DNA from: Rhodanobacter sp. Root480 | GTDB lineage: Bacteria; Pseudomonadota; Gammaproteobacteria; Xanthomonadales; Rhodanobacteraceae | Direction of reading: 5' to 3' | DNA: 64,000 nucleotides | Assembly (NCBI RefSeq): GCF_001426645.1 | Contig: NZ_LMEX01000004.1 | Span: 492-64,491 of the forward strand | Made by a program: the position numbers and the translations under genes | Shown: in pieces, positions 3,785-62,752 of the stretch | How positions within the stretch are numbered: position 1 is the first letter of the stretch | Layout of the letters: each line of letters starts with the position of its first letter | The notes under the pieces: model-generated | The model's database searches: none | Told to the model about the DNA's origin: nothing | Seen by the model: the letters and a program-made list of their open reading frames with translations, nothing else

Positions 3785-3811
3785 TCAAGTTTCCCCGGAG
3801 GTGGCCGATGC
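3785..3811 (+). promoter_or_regulatory. Candidate FliA promoter overlapping the RBS and start codon of the fliK-like gene
   Basis: TCAAGTTT - 11 bp - GCCGATGC on the plus strand, with the spacing of the other FliA sites in the window. The -35 is nearly identical to that of flgM. The -10 ends on the proposed ATG at 3808, so a transcript would begin inside the ORF. See the finding on this site. Confidence 0.45.
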
Positions 3812-5004
3812 CCTTCGAGACGACTCCATCCGAATGCCGTCCGCCACTGCCAGGACTTCTCTTGATCATCCAGCCCACCAGCCTTGCCGCGCTCACATGG
3901 GCCGGCGCCGCCGCCGGTACCACCGCGCAAAGCTGGCGCATCGGCACCGTGCTGTCGGCGCGGCCGCTTGGCGTGGATCCGCAGGGGCTGCTGGTGATGC
4001 AGGTAGGCGCCGCGACCGTGCAGGCGGATGTGCCGAGCGGCCAGCTGCCGCCGCAATTCCAGGTACGGGTATTGAGCCTCGGGGCACAGCCCCAGCTCGA
4101 AATATTGTCATCCCAACCGACCGCCGACCCCGCCGTCCAACGTGCGCTGCGCGAGCGGCTGCCACAGCAGAATGGCTACGCACCGCTGCTGGCCACGCTG
4201 GGCGCACTGGCGCAGCGGCCCGTGGTGCGCCAGTTGCCGCCGGCCCTGCGCACGGCGCTGGCCTTGCTTGAACAATCCGTCCGCACGCCGGCGGACGTTA
4301 CCCGCGGCGAAGGCCTGCGCGAGGCGATCAACCAGAGCGGGCTGTTCTTCGAATCGCGGCTGGCGCAACCGCAGGGCAACCATCCGGCGCTGGCCCAGGA
4401 TGACTGGAAAGGTGCCTTGCTGCGCCTGGCCGGCCTGCTCGACCAGCGCGCGGCCGCACCGCCCGCACCCAACCGCAGCGACACCGCGCCGCCGCTGCTG
4501 CAACGCGGCGTCCAGGCACAACCCCGGCTGCCGTTGCCGCAGCTTGCCGTCGACAACGATGTCGAGCCACTGATCAACCGGCTGCACGGCGACGTCAAGG
4601 CCGCGCTGGCGCGGGTGGAAGTGGCGCAACTGGACGCCGGCCCGCTGCCCGCCTGGATGATCGAGATTCCGCTGGAGGGCAAGGACGGCCGCGACGTGCT
4701 GCAGGTGCAACTGGAGTTCGTCAACGACGCCGCCGAAGGCAGCCAGGGCTGGACCCTGGGCTTCGCGCTGGACCTGCCGGCGCTGGGCCCGGTGCAGGGC
4801 GAACTGCAGTTGCGCGAACCGCGCCTGTCGGTACGACTGTGGGCCGAACACGCGGAAACCGCGCACAAGCTGGAACGCCAGTTCACGCCGTTGAAGCAGC
4901 GCCTGGCCGCCTGCGGCGTATTGCTGGATCAGCTCAGTTGCCAGGTGGGCATGCCGCAACCACCCGGTCGGCACAGCGCCCTGCTGCTGCAGGCCACCGC
5001 ATGA
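3808..5004 (+). CDS. FliK-like hook-length control paralogue
   Basis: 398 residues, Ala/Gln/Leu-rich. The N-terminal half is low-complexity and without motifs. The C-terminal 120 residues (from about 250) resemble the FliK C-terminal Flg_hook domain (alternating strands GELQLREPRLSVRLWAEH, then a helix ending in LAACGVLLDQLSCQVG). The ATG at 3808 has a strong CCGGAGGT 7 bp upstream. The stop overlaps the next start by 4 bp (ATGA), tying it to the FlhB-C-like gene, the natural partner of a FliK-type ruler. A true fliK is at 22265-23353, so this is a second FliK-domain protein; its role is not known. A TTG start near 3861 with AGGA before it is an alternative. Confidence 0.8.
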   Translation: MPFETTPSECRPPLPGLLLIIQPTSLAALTWAGAAAGTTAQSWRIGTVLSARPLGVDPQGLLVMQVGAATVQADVPSGQLPPQFQVRVLSLGAQPQLEILSSQPTADPAVQRALRERLPQQNGYAPLLATLGALAQRPVVRQLPPALRTALALLEQSVRTPADVTRGEGLREAINQSGLFFESRLAQPQGNHPALAQDDWKGALLRLAGLLDQRAAAPPAPNRSDTAPPLLQRGVQAQPRLPLPQLAVDNDVEPLINRLHGDVKAALARVEVAQLDAGPLPAWMIEIPLEGKDGRDVLQVQLEFVNDAAEGSQGWTLGFALDLPALGPVQGELQLREPRLSVRLWAEHAETAHKLERQFTPLKQRLAACGVLLDQLSCQVGMPQPPGRHSALLLQATA

Positions 5005-11245: not shown

Positions 11246-11974
11246 TCAATCGCGCCAGTCACCCAGCCGTGCGCGCAACCGGATCACCGCCTGGCCATGG
11301 ATCTGGCAGACGCGCGATTCGCTCACGCCGAGCACGGCGCCGATTTCCTTCAAGTTCAATTCCTGCTCGTAGTACAGCGACATCACCAGCTGCTCGCGCT
11401 CGGGCAAGCCCGTGATCGCGTCGGCCAGCGCATCGCGCATGCCCTGGTGTTCGATGCTGTCCGCCGGGCTCAGGCCCGATTCGTCGGCCACGTCGAGCGC
11501 GGCACTCTCCTCGCCGTCGTCCGGTGCGGTGAGGCTCAGCAACCGGGCGCAGGCCGCATCGGCCAGCACCTGGTGGTATTCCTCGGCACCGATGCCCAGG
11601 CGCTTCATCACTTCGGCGTCCTCCGCCTCGGTGCCGGTTTCGGCCTCGATCTGGCGTACCACCTCGGCCACTTCGCGGGTCTTGCGATGCACCGAGCGCG
11701 GGGTCCAGTCGGTGCGCCGCAGCTCGTCCAGCATGGCGCCACGGATACGGATGCCCGCATACGTCTCGAAGCTGGCGCCCCGGTCGAGGGCGTAATTGCG
11801 CGATGCTTCCAGCAAACCGATCATTCCCGCCTGGATCAAGTCGCCCACGTCAACGCTGGTCGGCAACCGCCCCATCAGGTGATAGGCGATGCGTCGCACC
11901 AGCGGTGCATGCCGACGTACCAGTTCGTCGGCGCTTTCGCGGGAATGTTGCAGATACTCCGATGCCACGTTCAT
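11246..11974 (-). CDS. fliA: Flagellar sigma factor FliA (sigma28)
   Basis: 242 residues. Sigma region 2 (LVRRHAPLVRRIAYHLMGRL, then GDLIQAGMIGLLEASRNY and FETYAGIRIRGAMLDELR), region 3, and region 4 helix-turn-helix (LNLKEIGAVLGVSESRVCQI) are complete. The ATG at 11974 is 1 bp after the flhG stop. It directs late genes from TCAAG/TAAAG-N11-GCCGATAA promoters, several of which are visible in this window. It is held inactive by FlgM (49951-50277) until the hook is built. Confidence 0.97.
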   Translation of the reverse strand: MNVASEYLQHSRESADELVRRHAPLVRRIAYHLMGRLPTSVDVGDLIQAGMIGLLEASRNYALDRGASFETYAGIRIRGAMLDELRRTDWTPRSVHRKTREVAEVVRQIEAETGTEAEDAEVMKRLGIGAEEYHQVLADAACARLLSLTAPDDGEESAALDVADESGLSPADSIEHQGMRDALADAITGLPEREQLVMSLYYEQELNLKEIGAVLGVSESRVCQIHGQAVIRLRARLGDWRD

Positions 11975-11975
11975 C

Positions 11976-12920
11976 TCACCACCCCGTTGACGACACAGGC
12001 TGACCGCCAAAGAAGGCGATGCGGCCATGGCCAGCGCGTTCGGGTTCTGCCCATGTATCGACCGCACCTGCCAATTGCTTGAATGCCATTGCCGAACGGC
12101 TCGATGGCCACAGGTCCACCACCGCGCACTGGCGGCGGATGGCCTGTCGCAGACGCTCGTCGTGCGGCACCCACCCGGTGAAATCGATCACCACGTCGAG
12201 AAAACGGTCGCTCACCCGCGAAAGCTTCTGGTGCAGCTGGCGCGCCTCGCCCTCGTTGCGCACCATGTTGGCGACCATGCGGAAACGGCGCACGCCGAAG
12301 TCGCGGCTGAGCACCTTGATCATGGCGTAAGCGTCGGTGAGGGAAGCGGGCTCATCGCACACCACCAACATCACGTCGTCGGTGGCGGCGGCAAACATCG
12401 CCACGCTGTCGGACAGCCCCGCGGCGGTGTCGACCAGCAGGTACTGCGGCGGGTGCGGCAGTTCGTCGAACGCGCGGATGACGGCCGCGTGCTCGCCGTT
12501 GTCCAGCTGCGCCAGGCGGCGTGCGCCGGAGCCGGCGGGAATCACGCGCAAACCGCGCGGCGCTTCCAGGATCAGGTCTTCCAACCCGCACTCGCCATCG
12601 AGCAGGTGGCCGATGTGGCGCGACGGCGTGAGGCCGAGCAGCACGTCGACATTGGCCAGGCCCATGTCGGCATCCAGCAGCATCACGTCGTGGCCGGCCA
12701 TCGACAGCGACATGCCCAGGTTCACCGATACGGTGCTCTTGCCCACGCCACCCTTGCCACCAGCGACGGCGATGGCGCGGCAGCGCCGGCGTGGCTTGCC
12801 CGGCATCTCGAGCAGGCCATCACCCTGCCCCGTGCCTGCCGGACCATTGGGTTCACCTGCCATCGCGGAAAACAGGTTCTTCAGACCGGAGGCCTGGTCC
12901 ATTGCAAATACTCCACTCAT
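11976..12920 (-). CDS. flhG: FlhG (FleN), MinD-type ATPase controlling flagellar number
   Basis: 314 residues. The N-terminal helix MDQASGLKNLF matches the DQAxxLR motif by which FlhG stimulates the FlhF GTPase. The deviant Walker A GGKGGVGKST is at 54-63 and the switch segment DADMGLANVD at 83-92. A C-terminal amphipathic region follows. It overlaps flhF by 4 bp. In polar flagellates FlhG limits flagella to one and binds FleQ; both partners are in this window. Confidence 0.95.
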   Translation of the reverse strand: MSGVFAMDQASGLKNLFSAMAGEPNGPAGTGQGDGLLEMPGKPRRRCRAIAVAGGKGGVGKSTVSVNLGMSLSMAGHDVMLLDADMGLANVDVLLGLTPSRHIGHLLDGECGLEDLILEAPRGLRVIPAGSGARRLAQLDNGEHAAVIRAFDELPHPPQYLLVDTAAGLSDSVAMFAAATDDVMLVVCDEPASLTDAYAMIKVLSRDFGVRRFRMVANMVRNEGEARQLHQKLSRVSDRFLDVVIDFTGWVPHDERLRQAIRRQCAVVDLWPSSRSAMAFKQLAGAVDTWAEPERAGHGRIAFFGGQPVSSTGW

Positions 12921-29300: not shown

Positions 29301-30731
<1,431 letters not shown>

Positions 30732-46475: not shown

Positions 46476-46491
46476 GGCAAATTGCATGCCA
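46476..46491 (-). promoter_or_regulatory. Sigma54 promoter of flgB operon
   Basis: TGGCATGCAATTTGCC on the minus strand, GG and GC exactly 10 bp apart, close to consensus. flgB starts 37 bp downstream. Confidence 0.88.
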
Positions 46492-46722: not shown

Positions 46723-47655
46723 TTACGCCTCTTCGTCGTGCTCCGGCAACAAATCCAGCACCGCCTTGGCCAGCAAGTCAGGCTGGAACTTCGCCACGAA
46801 GCGGTCGGCGTTCACCTCTTTCACCATCGCCTCGTTGAACAGCCCGCTGAGCGAGCTGTGCAGCACCACCTTGAGCTGGCGCAGGGACGGGGTTTCGCGG
46901 ATGGCGCGGGTCAGCGCGTAACCATCGAGCCGCGGCATCTCGATATCGGACACCACCAGCTTCACACCGTCGGCGGGATCGGCATCCACCAGTTCCAGCA
47001 GCCGCTCCAGCGCCTCGCGGCCATCCTGCGCCACCACGCATTCGATATTCATCTGCTTGAACAAGGCCACCAGCCGGCGCCGGGCGATCACCGAATCGTC
47101 CACCACCATGATCCGGCGCGGGTTGAGCATGGTGTCGTCGGAAAGGCGCTGCATCTGCGCCGACAGCTCGGCCGGGCCCGAGTCGATGCTGGCCAGCACG
47201 TGCTCCACGTCGATCACCGCCATCAGCGCACCGTCGATGCGGGTCACCGCATTCACCCGCGCGCCAAACCCCAGCGCGCCAGATGGCGCCACCAGCGATT
47301 CGCCATCGCAATGCACCATCCGTTGCAGGTCGGACACCAGGAAACCCTGCATCGAGCGGCTGAACTCGGTGACCATCAGGTGGGCCGAATCCACGTCGCG
47401 CAACGGCGCATAGCCCAGCGCCGCGGCCAGGTCGATCACCGGAATGGTCTGGCCGCGGTAATCGCAGCTGCCGGCCAGCAATTCATGCACACCGTGCATG
47501 CGCTCCAGCGGCGGCCGGCGCAGCACCTCGCGCACCTTGAACACATTGATGCCGAACAATTGCTGGTCGCCCAGCGTGAACAGCAGCATCGCCACCCGGT
47601 TGTGCCCGGCCAGCCGGGTATGCCGTTCCACCGTGTCCAGTAGCGTGCCGCTCAT
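46723..47655 (-). CDS. cheV: CheV, coupling protein fused to a receiver domain
   Basis: 310 residues. CheW domain at 1-160 (LLFTLGDQQLFGINVFKVRE, YRGQTIPVIDLAAALGY) and a receiver at about 180-305 with the acidic pair in MVVDDSVIARR, phospho-Asp in VSDIEMPRLDG, and the Lys in FVAKFQP. CheV tunes array sensitivity. A FliA promoter lies about 45 bp upstream. Confidence 0.95.
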   Translation of the reverse strand: MSGTLLDTVERHTRLAGHNRVAMLLFTLGDQQLFGINVFKVREVLRRPPLERMHGVHELLAGSCDYRGQTIPVIDLAAALGYAPLRDVDSAHLMVTEFSRSMQGFLVSDLQRMVHCDGESLVAPSGALGFGARVNAVTRIDGALMAVIDVEHVLASIDSGPAELSAQMQRLSDDTMLNPRRIMVVDDSVIARRRLVALFKQMNIECVVAQDGREALERLLELVDADPADGVKLVVSDIEMPRLDGYALTRAIRETPSLRQLKVVLHSSLSGLFNEAMVKEVNADRFVAKFQPDLLAKAVLDLLPEHDEEA

Positions 47656-47700: not shown

Positions 47701-47727
47701 CTATCGGCCATCAGGCGGCGCACTTGA
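47701..47727 (-). promoter_or_regulatory. FliA promoter of cheV
   Basis: TCAAGTGC - 11 bp - GCCGATAG on the minus strand; the -10 matches 7 of 8. It lies 46 bp upstream of cheV. Confidence 0.8.
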
Positions 47728-47761: not shown

Positions 47762-47777
47762 TGGCATATGACTTGCT
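47762..47777 (+). promoter_or_regulatory. Sigma54 promoter of the MCP-flgA operon
   Basis: TGGCATATGACTTGCT: GG (63-64) and GC (75-76) exactly 10 bp apart, near consensus. The predicted start point falls inside the adjoining FliA -35 element. Confidence 0.82.
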
Positions 47778-47780
47778 TGC

Positions 47781-47807
47781 TCAAGTTTCGATGACAGTTG
47801 ACGATTC
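47781..47807 (+). promoter_or_regulatory. FliA promoter of the MCP-flgA operon
   Basis: TCAAGTTT - 11 bp - GACGATTC: strong -35, moderate -10 (5 of 8). It lies 3 bp downstream of the sigma54 element. Confidence 0.6.
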
Positions 47808-47848: not shown

Positions 47849-49153
47849 ATGAGCTTGATTTGGAACTCGCACCTCACCGCCCTGGTGCAGGCAGCCGCCG
47901 CTGGCGACGAGAAGCAGGTCGCGGCGTTGCGACGCAAGTATCCGCGCACCGCGCGGGTGATCGCGCCGCTGCTGGCCCGTGCCGCCAGCCAGCCGCCGGC
48001 GGCGGTTGCGCTGCAGGCCATGGAGCAGCAAAGCCTGGTGCTGGCCGCGGTGCAGCAGCTTTCGCGCGAGCAGAGCGCGCTGGACAAGGCCGCCACCGAA
48101 AGCCGCGGCAGCGTCGATCGCTTGACGGATGGCAGCGCCGGGATCTCGACGGCACTGCGCCAGATCGGCACCGATCTGGACCTGGCCGCCAAGGCCGGGC
48201 AGGCCGGCGAAGGCAGCGTCAGTGAACTCGACGGCCAGTTGCGCCTGCTGCGCAGCGCGCTGTCGGCGATGAACCGCAACCAGAGCCGGCTGGCCGAACA
48301 GGTGGCGCAGATCCGCAAACTTACCGGTGTGGTGCAGGAAATCGCCCACCAGACCAACCTGGTGGCGCTTAACGCCGCCATCGAAGCCGCCCGCGCCGGC
48401 GAGGCGGGCCGCGGCTTTGCCGTGGTCGCCGACGAGGTGAAGCAGCTGGCGGAAAAAACCACGCTTACCACCACCGAGATCGAGACCGTCACCGGCTCCA
48501 TCGGTGATTTCTCGTTGCAACTGGACGGCGACGTGCAGCATGGCCTGCAACAACTGGAGCGTGCGCAGACCGGCGTCGGCCAGGCCACCACCGCCCTGCA
48601 CGATGGCGGAGAAGCCCTGCGCACGGCCCACGGCCGCGTGGCCGGCGTGCTGCAAAACCATGACGCGCAACATGCGCGCGCCACCACCGCGCAGGCCGCC
48701 CTGGGCGCGCTGCAGCGCCGCGGTATCGAGGCACGGCGCCAGGCCGAATCACTCAACCGCGCCGCATTGCTGGCGCACCGGCTGGGCCTGGACTGGCTGG
48801 AAAGCGAAAGCGGCAACGACGCGGCAAGCCTCAGCCTGACCGTGCGCGAGAGCGCCGCAAGCCTGCGCCAGGCCATGGAGCTGGCCCTGCTCGACCCCAG
48901 CGCGCTGGACCGGCGCTGGTTCGACACCCATTCCCTCAACCGCACCGTCCGTCGCCTGACCGCCCAGCACCCGGACAAACCGGCCAGTGCGGCGCTCGAC
49001 GAAAGCGGCACCCTGCTGTGCGAACAGAGCCAGCGCTTCATCACCCTGGTCTGCGACGGCCAGCTGGAGGAAGCTTCGCAACTGTCGCAACAACTGGAAG
49101 CCGGACGCGAGGCATTGCTGGCCCAGTTGGGCACGCTGCTGGCGGAAGCATGA
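47849..49153 (+). CDS. Soluble methyl-accepting chemotaxis protein
   Basis: 434 residues with no membrane helix or signal peptide. The signalling hairpin tip is [20 protein letters not shown] followed by [17 protein letters not shown] near 165-195; helical regions lie on both sides. About 190 C-terminal residues carry no domain I recognise; the zinc-binding CZB motif is not present. The ATG at 47849 is used; a TTG at 47843 has a better-spaced AAAGG. Its stop overlaps flgA by 4 bp, an unusual pairing. It is expressed from tandem sigma54 and FliA promoters. Confidence 0.88.
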
Positions 49154-49872
49154 AGCAAGGCGCGCCAGGTTCCCGCCTCCAGCACACCACCATGTGGTGC
49201 GTGCTGGCGTGGGCGGGCATCTGCGCCACTCCCGCCTGGGCGGCCCAGCCGCCCGACGCCATACGAGCCGCCGCCGAGCAGGCCGTGCGTGAACACTACG
49301 CAATGCCCGGCAACCGCGTCGTGGTGCACACCGAAGCGCTCGACATGCGATTGAAGCTGGACGACTGCGCGCAACCGCTGATCGCCACCGTACCCGACCG
49401 CGCCACTCCGCCCTCACACATGAGCGTGCAGGTGCAATGCACGCAGCCACGCCACTGGAGCGTGCGGGTGCCGGTGAAGCTGGAGCTGTTCCGGACCGTG
49501 CTGGTGACCAGCCACGCGTTGCAACGCGGCGACGGCCTCAGCCTGGCCGACGTACGCCCGGAAGAGCGCGACATCACCCGTCTCGGTTACGGCTACGTGG
49601 AAAACCTGCAACAGGTGGCCGGCCGAACCTTGTCGCGGGCACTGCCAAAAGACACCGTACTGAGCCCCGGCGCACTGGGCGGACGACGCATGGTGCGCGC
49701 GGGCGACCATGTACAGGTAGTAGCCCGGCTCGGTAGCATTGAGGTTCGTGCCGACGGTGTGGCGCTGGGCAGCGGCGACAATGGCGCCCGCCTGCGCGTT
49801 CGCAACGAAAACTCCGGCAAGATCGTCGACGCCATGGTCAGCGCGCCCGGCGTGGTCACCGCCCTGCCCTGA
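49150..49872 (+). CDS. flgA: P-ring assembly chaperone FlgA
   Basis: 240 residues. Signal peptide to about residue 32 (CATPAWA). Periplasmic SAF-type domain: [51 protein letters not shown], and the ending [19 protein letters not shown]. It escorts FlgI. It is translationally coupled to the soluble MCP. Confidence 0.95.
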
Positions 49873-49886
49873 CCGTCAACCGCCAC

Positions 49887-49913
49887 TAAAGTTTCCCCCG
49901 GTCCGGCCGATCT
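49887..49913 (+). promoter_or_regulatory. FliA promoter of flgMN
   Basis: TAAAGTTT - 11 bp - GCCGATCT: the -35 matches the consensus fully and the -10 6 of 8. It lies 38 bp upstream of flgM, so FliA drives its own inhibitor once released. Confidence 0.85.
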
Positions 49914-49950: not shown

Positions 49951-50277
49951 ATGACCACTTCCATTCAAAACAATGGTTTGCCGAATTTTCCCCAGGCAAC
50001 CGGCGCCACCGGGAATGCATCGGCATCGGCCTCCACCACCGCTGCCGCCGGCAGCAGCGCCGCCGTAACGCCTCAGTCGGACGATCAACTCAAGTTGACC
50101 GATTCAGCCCGGGCACTGCAGGAAGCCGCGCGCCTGGACACGTCGTCCGCCATCGACACCAAGCGGGTCGAACAGATCCGCGAGGCACTGGCCAACGGCA
50201 ATTACCAGATCGACGCCGGCCGGATCGCGGACCGCATGCTGTCATTCGAGCGCCAGATCGGCGCAGGTGCCGTATGA
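49951..50277 (+). CDS. flgM: Anti-sigma28 factor FlgM
   Basis: 108 residues. Disordered Ala/Ser/Thr-rich N-terminus and the conserved C-terminal FliA-binding part (DQLKLTDSARALQEAARL, RVEQIREALANGNYQIDAGR, IADRML). The ATG at 49951 follows AGAAGGA. It is secreted once the hook is complete, freeing FliA. Confidence 0.94.
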   Translation: MTTSIQNNGLPNFPQATGATGNASASASTTAAAGSSAAVTPQSDDQLKLTDSARALQEAARLDTSSAIDTKRVEQIREALANGNYQIDAGRIADRMLSFERQIGAGAV

Positions 50278-50720
50278 ACCGGCCGCTGCAGGGCGAACTG
50301 AGCGATGCACTGGGTGCCGTACTCAGCGACATGCAGCAGGCCATCACGCAGCTGACGCAAGTGCTGGAGAACGAGCGCACGGCCTTGAATGCCGGCAACA
50401 GCGACGCGCTCGGTGAAGCCGGCGCCAGCAAACAGAAGCTCATGCTGCAGCTGGAGCAGCTCGACGCGGAGCGGCAACAGTTGAGCCGCGAAGCGCCCGC
50501 CGCCGCGGCCAGGCTGGACGCCACCTGGTCACAGGTGCTGCTGGCCCTGCGCCACTGCCAGCAACTCAACCAGAGCAACGGCCGCGCCGTGAACCAGCGC
50601 CTTGGCCAGGTACGCCAGGCACTGTCGGTACTGACCGGACACGCCGGCGAAACCGGCTTGTATGGCCCCACCGGCGGACTCCGCGGCGGCCTCCGATCAC
50701 AAGTGCTGGCTCAGGCCTGA
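50274..50720 (+). CDS. flgN: FlgK/FlgL export chaperone FlgN
   Basis: 148 residues, helical, with the FlgN pattern (LLEELRALL-like MQQAITQLTQVLENERTALN, then KQKLMLQLEQLDAERQQL, LLALRHCQQLNQSNGRAVNQ). It overlaps flgM by 4 bp. Confidence 0.88.
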   Translation: MNRPLQGELSDALGAVLSDMQQAITQLTQVLENERTALNAGNSDALGEAGASKQKLMLQLEQLDAERQQLSREAPAAAARLDATWSQVLLALRHCQQLNQSNGRAVNQRLGQVRQALSVLTGHAGETGLYGPTGGLRGGLRSQVLAQA

Positions 50721-62377: not shown

Positions 62378-62752
62378 CGCCCTGGCCACCCTGCCCTTCG
62401 GCGCGCCAGCCACCCTCCGGGGGCGCCCCATTTGCGCCAACACCTAAAGTTTTGCCAATAATGGCCGCTCAGGTATCCGTGCACCCATCGCCCGATGGAT
62501 GTTTGTGCCGGAGCCGGCAGGGGCAGGTTTGAAACCGGAAGCTGGACGAGAAACAGCGTTGATGGGGAAGCTGCGGCCATGGCCGACTCACTATCGGCAC
62601 GGATCGGGCCGCGGGGAAGCTTTGTCTTTAACGATGGCTGAGCAAAATCAGCCGGAGTCACGTTCAGCATGACTGTGGTCATCCACCCGTCGACGGCGCC
62701 ATGCGTTGTTGGCCCTGCTGTGCGCGCCTTGCCCTGTGCAAGGCGCGCCAGC
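62378..62752. other. Intergenic region upstream of the propeller gene
   Basis: I see no gene, tRNA or repeat of the families found elsewhere. An in-frame ATG at 62669 could extend the following ORF. I checked for a c-di-GMP riboswitch and found no match to its conserved core. Confidence 0.5.

Follow-up and report, generated by a model that had tools for sequence, protein, structure and literature searches.

A conserved composite of sigma54 and FliA promoter elements upstream of a soluble MCP gene and flgA in the family of Rhodanobacter

The MCP-flgA locus and its promoter elements

The window, by which we mean the whole 64,000-nucleotide stretch of Rhodanobacter sp. Root480 DNA analysed here, carries a gene for a soluble MCP that is followed by flgA, flgM and flgN and has cheV as its neighbour on the other side (Table 1). 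The highest 19-residue hydropathy value of the MCP is 1.23, it shares 99% identity with a protein of Rhodanobacter fulvus Jip2, and structure prediction renders it all-helical with helical ends (pLDDT 87.6, pTM 0.53); its signalling tip is invariant among 24 aligned sequences. Among the genomes compared, this soluble MCP was found only in the host's family, the 35 others having no ortholog. Genes for FliA and for a sigma54 activator of the FleQ type are present in the window, and the genome encodes RpoN (TIGR02395, 474.8 bits, above the cut-off).

Upstream of the MCP gene and flgA, a sigma54 element and a FliA-type element stand in tandem within 46 bp. The preliminary description of this DNA had read a near-consensus GG-N10-GC sigma54 element followed after 3 bp by the -35 and -10 of a FliA promoter; the two elements and their order are indeed read in the sequence, and recur in 75 of 76 loci of the family (see below), but the gap between them is 4 bp. 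Against TGGCAC-N5-TTGC, the element TGGCATATGACTTGC has a single mismatch, and it has the GG-N10-GC form of a sigma54 promoter. The FliA-type element, TCAAGTTT-N11-GACGATTC, differs at one position from TMAAGTTT-N11-GCCGAT and by sequence qualifies as a FliA promoter; compared with the full consensus TMAAGTTT-N11-GCCGATAA it has three mismatches, all of them within the -10, GACGATTC. For Pseudomonas aeruginosa, the FliA consensus is given as TAAAGTTT-N11-GCCGATAA in the part of the source used here (PMC7286023). At the distances usual for the two kinds of promoter (12 nt for sigma54), transcription is predicted to start at about position 47788 from the sigma54 element, which is the end of the FliA -35, and at about 47814 from the FliA element; the ATG of the MCP gene lies 41 bp downstream of the end of the FliA -10.

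Table 1 Features of the MCP-flgA locus and related genes (positions are those of the window)
Feature	Position	Strand	Basis or remark
sigma54 (-24/-12) element TGGCATATGACTTGC	47762..47776	+	GG 47763-47764, N10, GC 47775-47776
Spacer TTGC, 4 bp, between sigma54 -12 and FliA -35	47777..47780	+	read in sequence
FliA (sigma28) -35 TCAAGTTT	47781..47788	+	motif scan of window and genome
FliA (sigma28) -10 GACGATTC, N11 after -35	47800..47807	+	motif scan of window
Soluble MCP, 434 aa	47849..49153	+	domain search: MCPsignal PF00015 only, no transmembrane-like stretch
flgA, P-ring chaperone	49150..49872	+	ATG overlaps MCP stop (ATGA)
flgM FliA-type promoter TAAAGTTT-N11-GCCGATCT	49887..49913	+	no core mismatch; directly behind flgA
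flgM (anti-sigma28)	49951..50277	+	PF04316
flgN	50274..50720	+	PF05130
cheV, divergent neighbour	46723..47655	-	CheW and response-regulator domains
cheV FliA-type promoter TCAAGTGC-N11-GCCGATAG	47701..47727	-	motif scan
sigma54 element without FliA -35 behind it (comparison)	46477..46491	-	before a gene with Flg_bb_rod PF00460, which we take to be flgB
fleQ-type sigma54 activator	29301..30731	-	PF06490, PF00158
fliA (sigma28)	11246..12067	-	TIGR02479, 274.4 bits; sigma70 regions 2-4

The locus has two further FliA-type elements. In that of cheV, the -35 and the sigma54 element of the composite are about 35 bp apart, and the divergent cheV and MCP units might influence each other. Since flgM lies behind a strong FliA-type promoter of its own, FliA would drive the gene for the anti-sigma factor that acts on it. 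Between positions 47600 and 50850, a simple consensus scan returned no match to a sigma70-type promoter. Over the same interval there are two terminator-like matches, one on each strand and both inside the MCP gene, where shuffled sequence gives a mean of 3.0; the plus-strand match (48488-48508) is weak and is the only one on that strand before flgM. As the matches are fewer than in shuffled sequence, we take neither as real.

As a motif on its own, the sigma54 match is within chance expectation: when up to two mismatches are allowed, the window has 87 matches against a shuffle mean of 115. The FliA motif, by comparison, occurs six times in the window when up to three mismatches are allowed, where shuffles give a mean of 0.10, and the FliA element of the composite is one of only five sites in the 3.67-Mb genome within one mismatch of TMAAGTTT-N11-GCCGAT. 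Looser FliA matches mean little, because at up to two mismatches the genome holds 39 sites for the pattern and 28 for the reversed pattern. By chance, a TGGC-N7-TTGC motif should fall 0-12 bp upstream of any of the five sites, on the same strand, about 0.004 times (5 x 13 x 248 per strand / 3.67 Mb). Behind five other sigma54-like sites near flagellar genes of the window, which were picked by hand, TCAAG is absent.

Elsewhere in the window, a FliA-type site with no core mismatch (3785-3811) stands at the start of a FliK-type Flg_hook frame (3808-5004) whose first ATG falls within the FliA -10; the true start may lie further in, or the hook-length gene may be driven by FliA from a very short leader. 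Another FliA-type site, at 62445-62471 and with one core mismatch, precedes by about 200 bp a frame that extends from 62669 off the window.

Conservation of the composite in the host's family

A search of 147 genomes of the family with the MCP protein yielded 76 ortholog loci, with search scores of 129-875 bits (G087, in which the gene is split between contigs, was omitted). In all 76 loci flgA follows the MCP gene; the ATGA overlap of the two genes is found in 63, seven more have the genes 2 nt apart, two slightly further apart, and four could not be placed. By a strict expression, both elements occur at the same place, 3-6 bp apart, in 75 of the 76 loci, which represent 19 genera. The spacer is 4 bp long in 48 of these composites, 3 bp in 14, 5 bp in 11 and 6 bp in two, and the FliA -35 and -10 are separated by N11 in 74 of the 75. 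The sole exception, locus L080 of genome G006, has a sigma54-like site with no FliA element, which indicates that the promoter pair is not indispensable. With its sigma54-like site alone, L080 is a natural comparison locus.

Because the strict expression fixes many letters, we put weight on those letters that it leaves free. Across the 75 composites, the free letters of the sigma54 element carry 2.0 bits (A5) and 1.2 bits (C6), the TTT of the -35 carries 1.0, 1.0 and 0.5 bits, and in the -10 the first letter, a G, carries 1.3 bits and the second 0.7 bits, whereas the flanks are unconserved, with means of 0.15 bits over the 20 bases upstream and 0.21 bits over the 25 downstream. A relaxed scoring, which fixed only the GG and the GC and tolerated no more than four mismatches against the sigma54 consensus, was applied to 75 loci; L079, which lies outside this set, carries the composite by the strict expression. 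Under the relaxed scoring, the sigma54 element has at most one mismatch to TGGCAC-N5-TTGC in 75/75 loci, and in 74 of the 75 it is followed, after 3-6 bp, by a FliA element that is no more than four mismatches away from TMAAGTTT and GCCGAT. When the FliA element is scored with 14 letters compared and two free (maximum 16), 65 of the 75 composites reach at least 13; mononucleotide shuffling of the 60 bases that follow the sigma54 element attains this level in 0.3% of cases. The element is weaker in all 11 loci of genus g11 (12-13 of 16) and in three of the eight of genus g22.

Across the family composites, between 11 and 112 bp separate the -10 from the assumed ATG, and identity among the MCPs falls to 37%. 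Nine loci (L039, L051, L052 and L055-L060) have no cheV match in the retrieved DNA, which reaches about 2 kb upstream, and have the composite intact. In a collection of named genomes that overlaps the 76 loci, the composite is present at 68 of 71 MCP loci, and the three without it are distant MCP matches rather than orthologs. We regard conservation as the decisive evidence, and at the level of sequence it confirms both promoter elements as real.

Whole-genome scans registered the pattern only; position at the MCP gene was checked for the retrieved loci. The composite pattern gave 77 sites in 76 of the 147 family genomes, against four for the reversed pattern. Of the MCP-flgA form are 74 of the 77, comprising 73 at retrieved loci and one in G087, and the remaining three, found in G017, G137 and G132, resemble chance matches. 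When the distance to the -10 was set to N14-15 in place of N16, a single one of the 147 genomes matched. A sample of the order gave matches in 95 of 398 genomes; by hand count, a site of the composite form is present in 83 of 125 family genomes and six further family sites look like chance, while among 273 genomes of other families ten match and none of these sites begins TGGCA[C/T]. In a sample of the class, 15 of 369 genomes match, with 16 sites between them: one is the window's own, 13 fall within open frames of 120 codons or more, and two (L091 and L096) lie outside such frames.

Three loose versions of a FleQ-like dyad, modelled on that of Pseudomonas, were found upstream of 1, 0 and 1 of the 75 family composites, against shuffle means of 0.1, 0.1 and 2.5; the site in the host may differ from the Pseudomonas form. 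The commonest words shared upstream of the 75 composites are those of the cheV FliA promoter.

flgA loci that have no MCP gene and the order of events

Among 200 genomes of the order, 60 yielded a flgA match, and 35 of these 60 belong to other families. As a comparison set of flgA loci with no MCP gene we used 34 of the 35 outside-family loci (G633, with a flgA match of 20 bits, was omitted) together with that of the family member G017, whose flgA is only 26% identical, making 35 in all. flgB is present at 34 of these loci, cheV at 28 (the match at L201 being spurious) and the MCP gene at none; the best match to the MCP anywhere in the 35 genomes scores 71.6 bits and covers part of the protein. 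In the 450 bp that precede flgA, the best sigma54-like site has no or one mismatch at 29 loci and two mismatches at six. Behind these sites the FliA element is at shuffle level, with one of 35 scoring 12 and none scoring 13 or more. That flgA is made by an early route, as had been suggested for the host, gains support from this sigma54-like site with no FliA element and from the listing of Pseudomonas flgA in class II (PMC8036289, Table 1, the part of that paper used here).

The other promoters of the locus are common to both groups. The FliA-type promoter of flgM scores at least 13 at all 76 family loci (and there, in fact, at least 14 of 16) and at 30 of 34 others, and that of cheV scores at least 13 at 61 of 67 family loci and at 26 of 28 others, the spurious L201 counted. 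For this reason the sigma54-flgA, FliA-flgM and FliA-cheV promoters look old, and the MCP gene and the second FliA promoter look new. In a CheV plus FlgA tree of 94 loci (67 from the family and 27 others), the deepest branch of the family, L079, has the composite, L080 is nested inside the family, and the length of the spacer requires at least six changes. The likely history, as read from these sequences, is that the MCP gene was inserted behind an old sigma54-flgA promoter and that a FliA promoter was then grafted onto the sigma54 start. The split of the family has a support of only 40 and both L079 and L080 are long branches, so this order of gain is likely rather than proven. The MCP gene and the FliA element, moreover, arise jointly a single time, so that their association counts as one event.

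Readings of the overlap

The sigma54 start predicted within the FliA -35, at its end, agrees with the preliminary description, and the competition envisaged there fits this geometry, by which the two holoenzymes should exclude each other. We consider it probable that the composite is a true double promoter, consisting of an ancestral early sigma54 promoter and a late FliA promoter grafted onto it, which overlap such that one polymerase loads at a time. The sigma54 element, presumably activated by FleQ, would be the ancestral promoter of flgA, and the MCP gene would have entered between the two in an ancestor of the family. Sigma54 polymerase with FleQ would make an early MCP-flgA transcript, perhaps continuing into flgMN, and FlgA would be available in time for the P ring. 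A FliA promoter added at the sigma54 start would let the receptor gene, with the remainder of the operon, be transcribed late as well, FliA polymerase taking over the same 46 bp after export of FlgM and keeping the receptor supplied. At the overlap itself, FleQ-driven early firing, damping of FliA by a parked sigma54 polymerase when FleQ is off, and late replacement by FliA polymerase may each occur.

It had further been proposed that flgA is served by the early promoter and the receptor by the late one. We do not retain this division by promoter choice alone: both promoters precede both genes, the genes overlap in 63 of the 76 loci, and neither terminator-like match is credited. Each promoter should therefore yield both products, and the receptor would simply also be made early. 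A separate candidate, that a long sigma54 leader masks the ribosome site and a short FliA leader frees it, was likewise rejected, the long leader being the less accessible in 41 of 75 loci with no trend.

The comparisons with published systems that follow refer to those parts of the cited papers that we drew on. In E. coli and Salmonella, complex flagellar promoters are described for fliAZY, fliDST and fliLMNOPQR, along with overlapping flgAMN and flgMN operons (PMC4183435), and flgA is assigned to classes II and III (PMC8036289, Table 1). The present locus resembles these in that an operon would be read early and again by FliA, and in that flgA lies upstream of an flgMN that is also transcribed separately. 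It differs in that early transcription there depends on sigma70 and FlhDC, whereas the element in that role here is of the sigma54 type; its polymerase depends on an activator and can rest on DNA in an inactive state. The composite may thus work like the hybrid early/late promoters of E. coli but is not a member of that class. In Pseudomonas, flgA is listed in class II only (sigma54 and FleQ), and flgMN and che genes in class IV (FliA) (PMC8036289, Table 1); placing flgA under sigma54 is shared with the present locus, whereas the fusion of a FliA element to the sigma54 one is not. The flgA promoter of Vibrio cholerae is described as requiring neither of the two sigma factors (PMC3930126). The fliS-fliTX-flgZ operon of Xanthomonas oryzae, which requires RpoN2, FleQ and FliA, is likewise a flagellar operon tied to all three regulators; its authors suggest that RpoN2 and FleQ act via FliA, and the parts of the paper used here describe no second promoter (PMC5550985).

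Sigma54 polymerase of E. coli can repress overlapping sigma70 promoters in vitro (PMC4551910). Earlier cases of competition at overlaps, including that of Zafar 2014, are cited in a study whose own data are consistent with competition at intergenic sites, and which found no effect of sigma54 bound inside genes (PMC4591121). The composite is like these cases in having overlapping promoters for sigma54 and a sigma70-family factor that would compete for binding; it is unlike them in that the partner is the flagellar FliA instead of sigma70 and in that the arrangement is conserved at one locus in a family. Early/late flagellar double promoters and repression of overlapping promoters by sigma54 are therefore known from E. 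coli, and what is new is the sigma54/FliA composite at MCP-flgA, of which we found no description in a search of full-text literature whose scope took in few subscription journals.

Two variants of the double-promoter reading, whose odds overlap with its own, concern what the overlap does. In one, the overlap is a by-product of packing: the two promoters are additive, and exclusion is of no regulatory consequence since the sigma factors act at different times. The changes in spacer length (3-6 bp, with at least six changes on the tree) argue that exact phasing is not required, and in E. coli, by RNA-seq under the conditions used, genes with dual FlhDC/FliA regulation responded little or not at all when fliA was deleted (PMC4183435, in part). 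In all 75 composites, however, the elements have stayed 3-6 bp apart despite unconserved flanks and a -10-to-ATG distance that varies from 11 to 112 bp, and they have done so also in the nine loci with no adjoining cheV; we put this variant at somewhat less than an even chance. In the other, sigma54 polymerase parked in a closed complex blocks FliA until FleQ fires it or sigma54 leaves, and late expression is delayed. The preliminary description had considered FliA occupancy shutting the early promoter; given the repression seen with sigma54 polymerase at overlapping sigma70 promoters, blocking of FliA by an inactive sigma54 polymerase is at least as likely (PMC4551910, in part). All locally repressing sigma54 motifs in that work have C at -12, with competition against sigma70 polymerase in vitro, and a GC is present at -12 in 75/75 composites; the GC is, however, plain sigma54 consensus and was required by the search, which makes it weak evidence, and we lean against this variant while thinking it possible.

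Readings in which a single promoter works fare less well. MCP genes are commonly FliA-dependent, and the FliA element here is among the five sites of the genome within one mismatch, as would be expected if only the FliA promoter were active and the sigma54 element were a relic of the old flgA promoter. A relic would hardly keep within one mismatch of consensus in 75/75 loci while the flanks drift and MCP identity falls to 37%, and L080 retains its sigma54-like site with no FliA element; we hold this reading to be improbable. The converse, that only the sigma54 promoter works and the FliA-like element is either fortuitous or a conserved site of another kind, could appeal to the three positions, all in the -10 GACGATTC, at which the window's site departs from the full consensus. 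We judge it the least credible, as the -35 and -10 are conserved jointly at N11 in 74 of 75 composites against a shuffle rate of 0.3%, and as the FliA score is at shuffle level at the 35 flgA loci that have no MCP gene.

If the double promoter that we favour operates as proposed, it may go further and be a hand-over device, in which the parked sigma54 polymerase both primes an early burst of FlgA and holds the FliA promoter shut, such that the operon changes its polymerase and does not just add a start. Such a device would be family-wide and would have arisen as the receptor gene was inserted, a late promoter being grafted onto the old early promoter; we offer this extension as speculation and rather doubt it. 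Taken together, the composite represents a natural and repeatedly sampled fusion of sigma54 and FliA promoters at a nearly fixed distance, with 75 loci in 19 genera and 35 comparison loci that have no second promoter. Two questions thereby become accessible to experiment: whether a late flagellar promoter is timed by an inactive sigma54 polymerase, and in what way a gene that enters a flagellar operon gains a new place in the order of expression.
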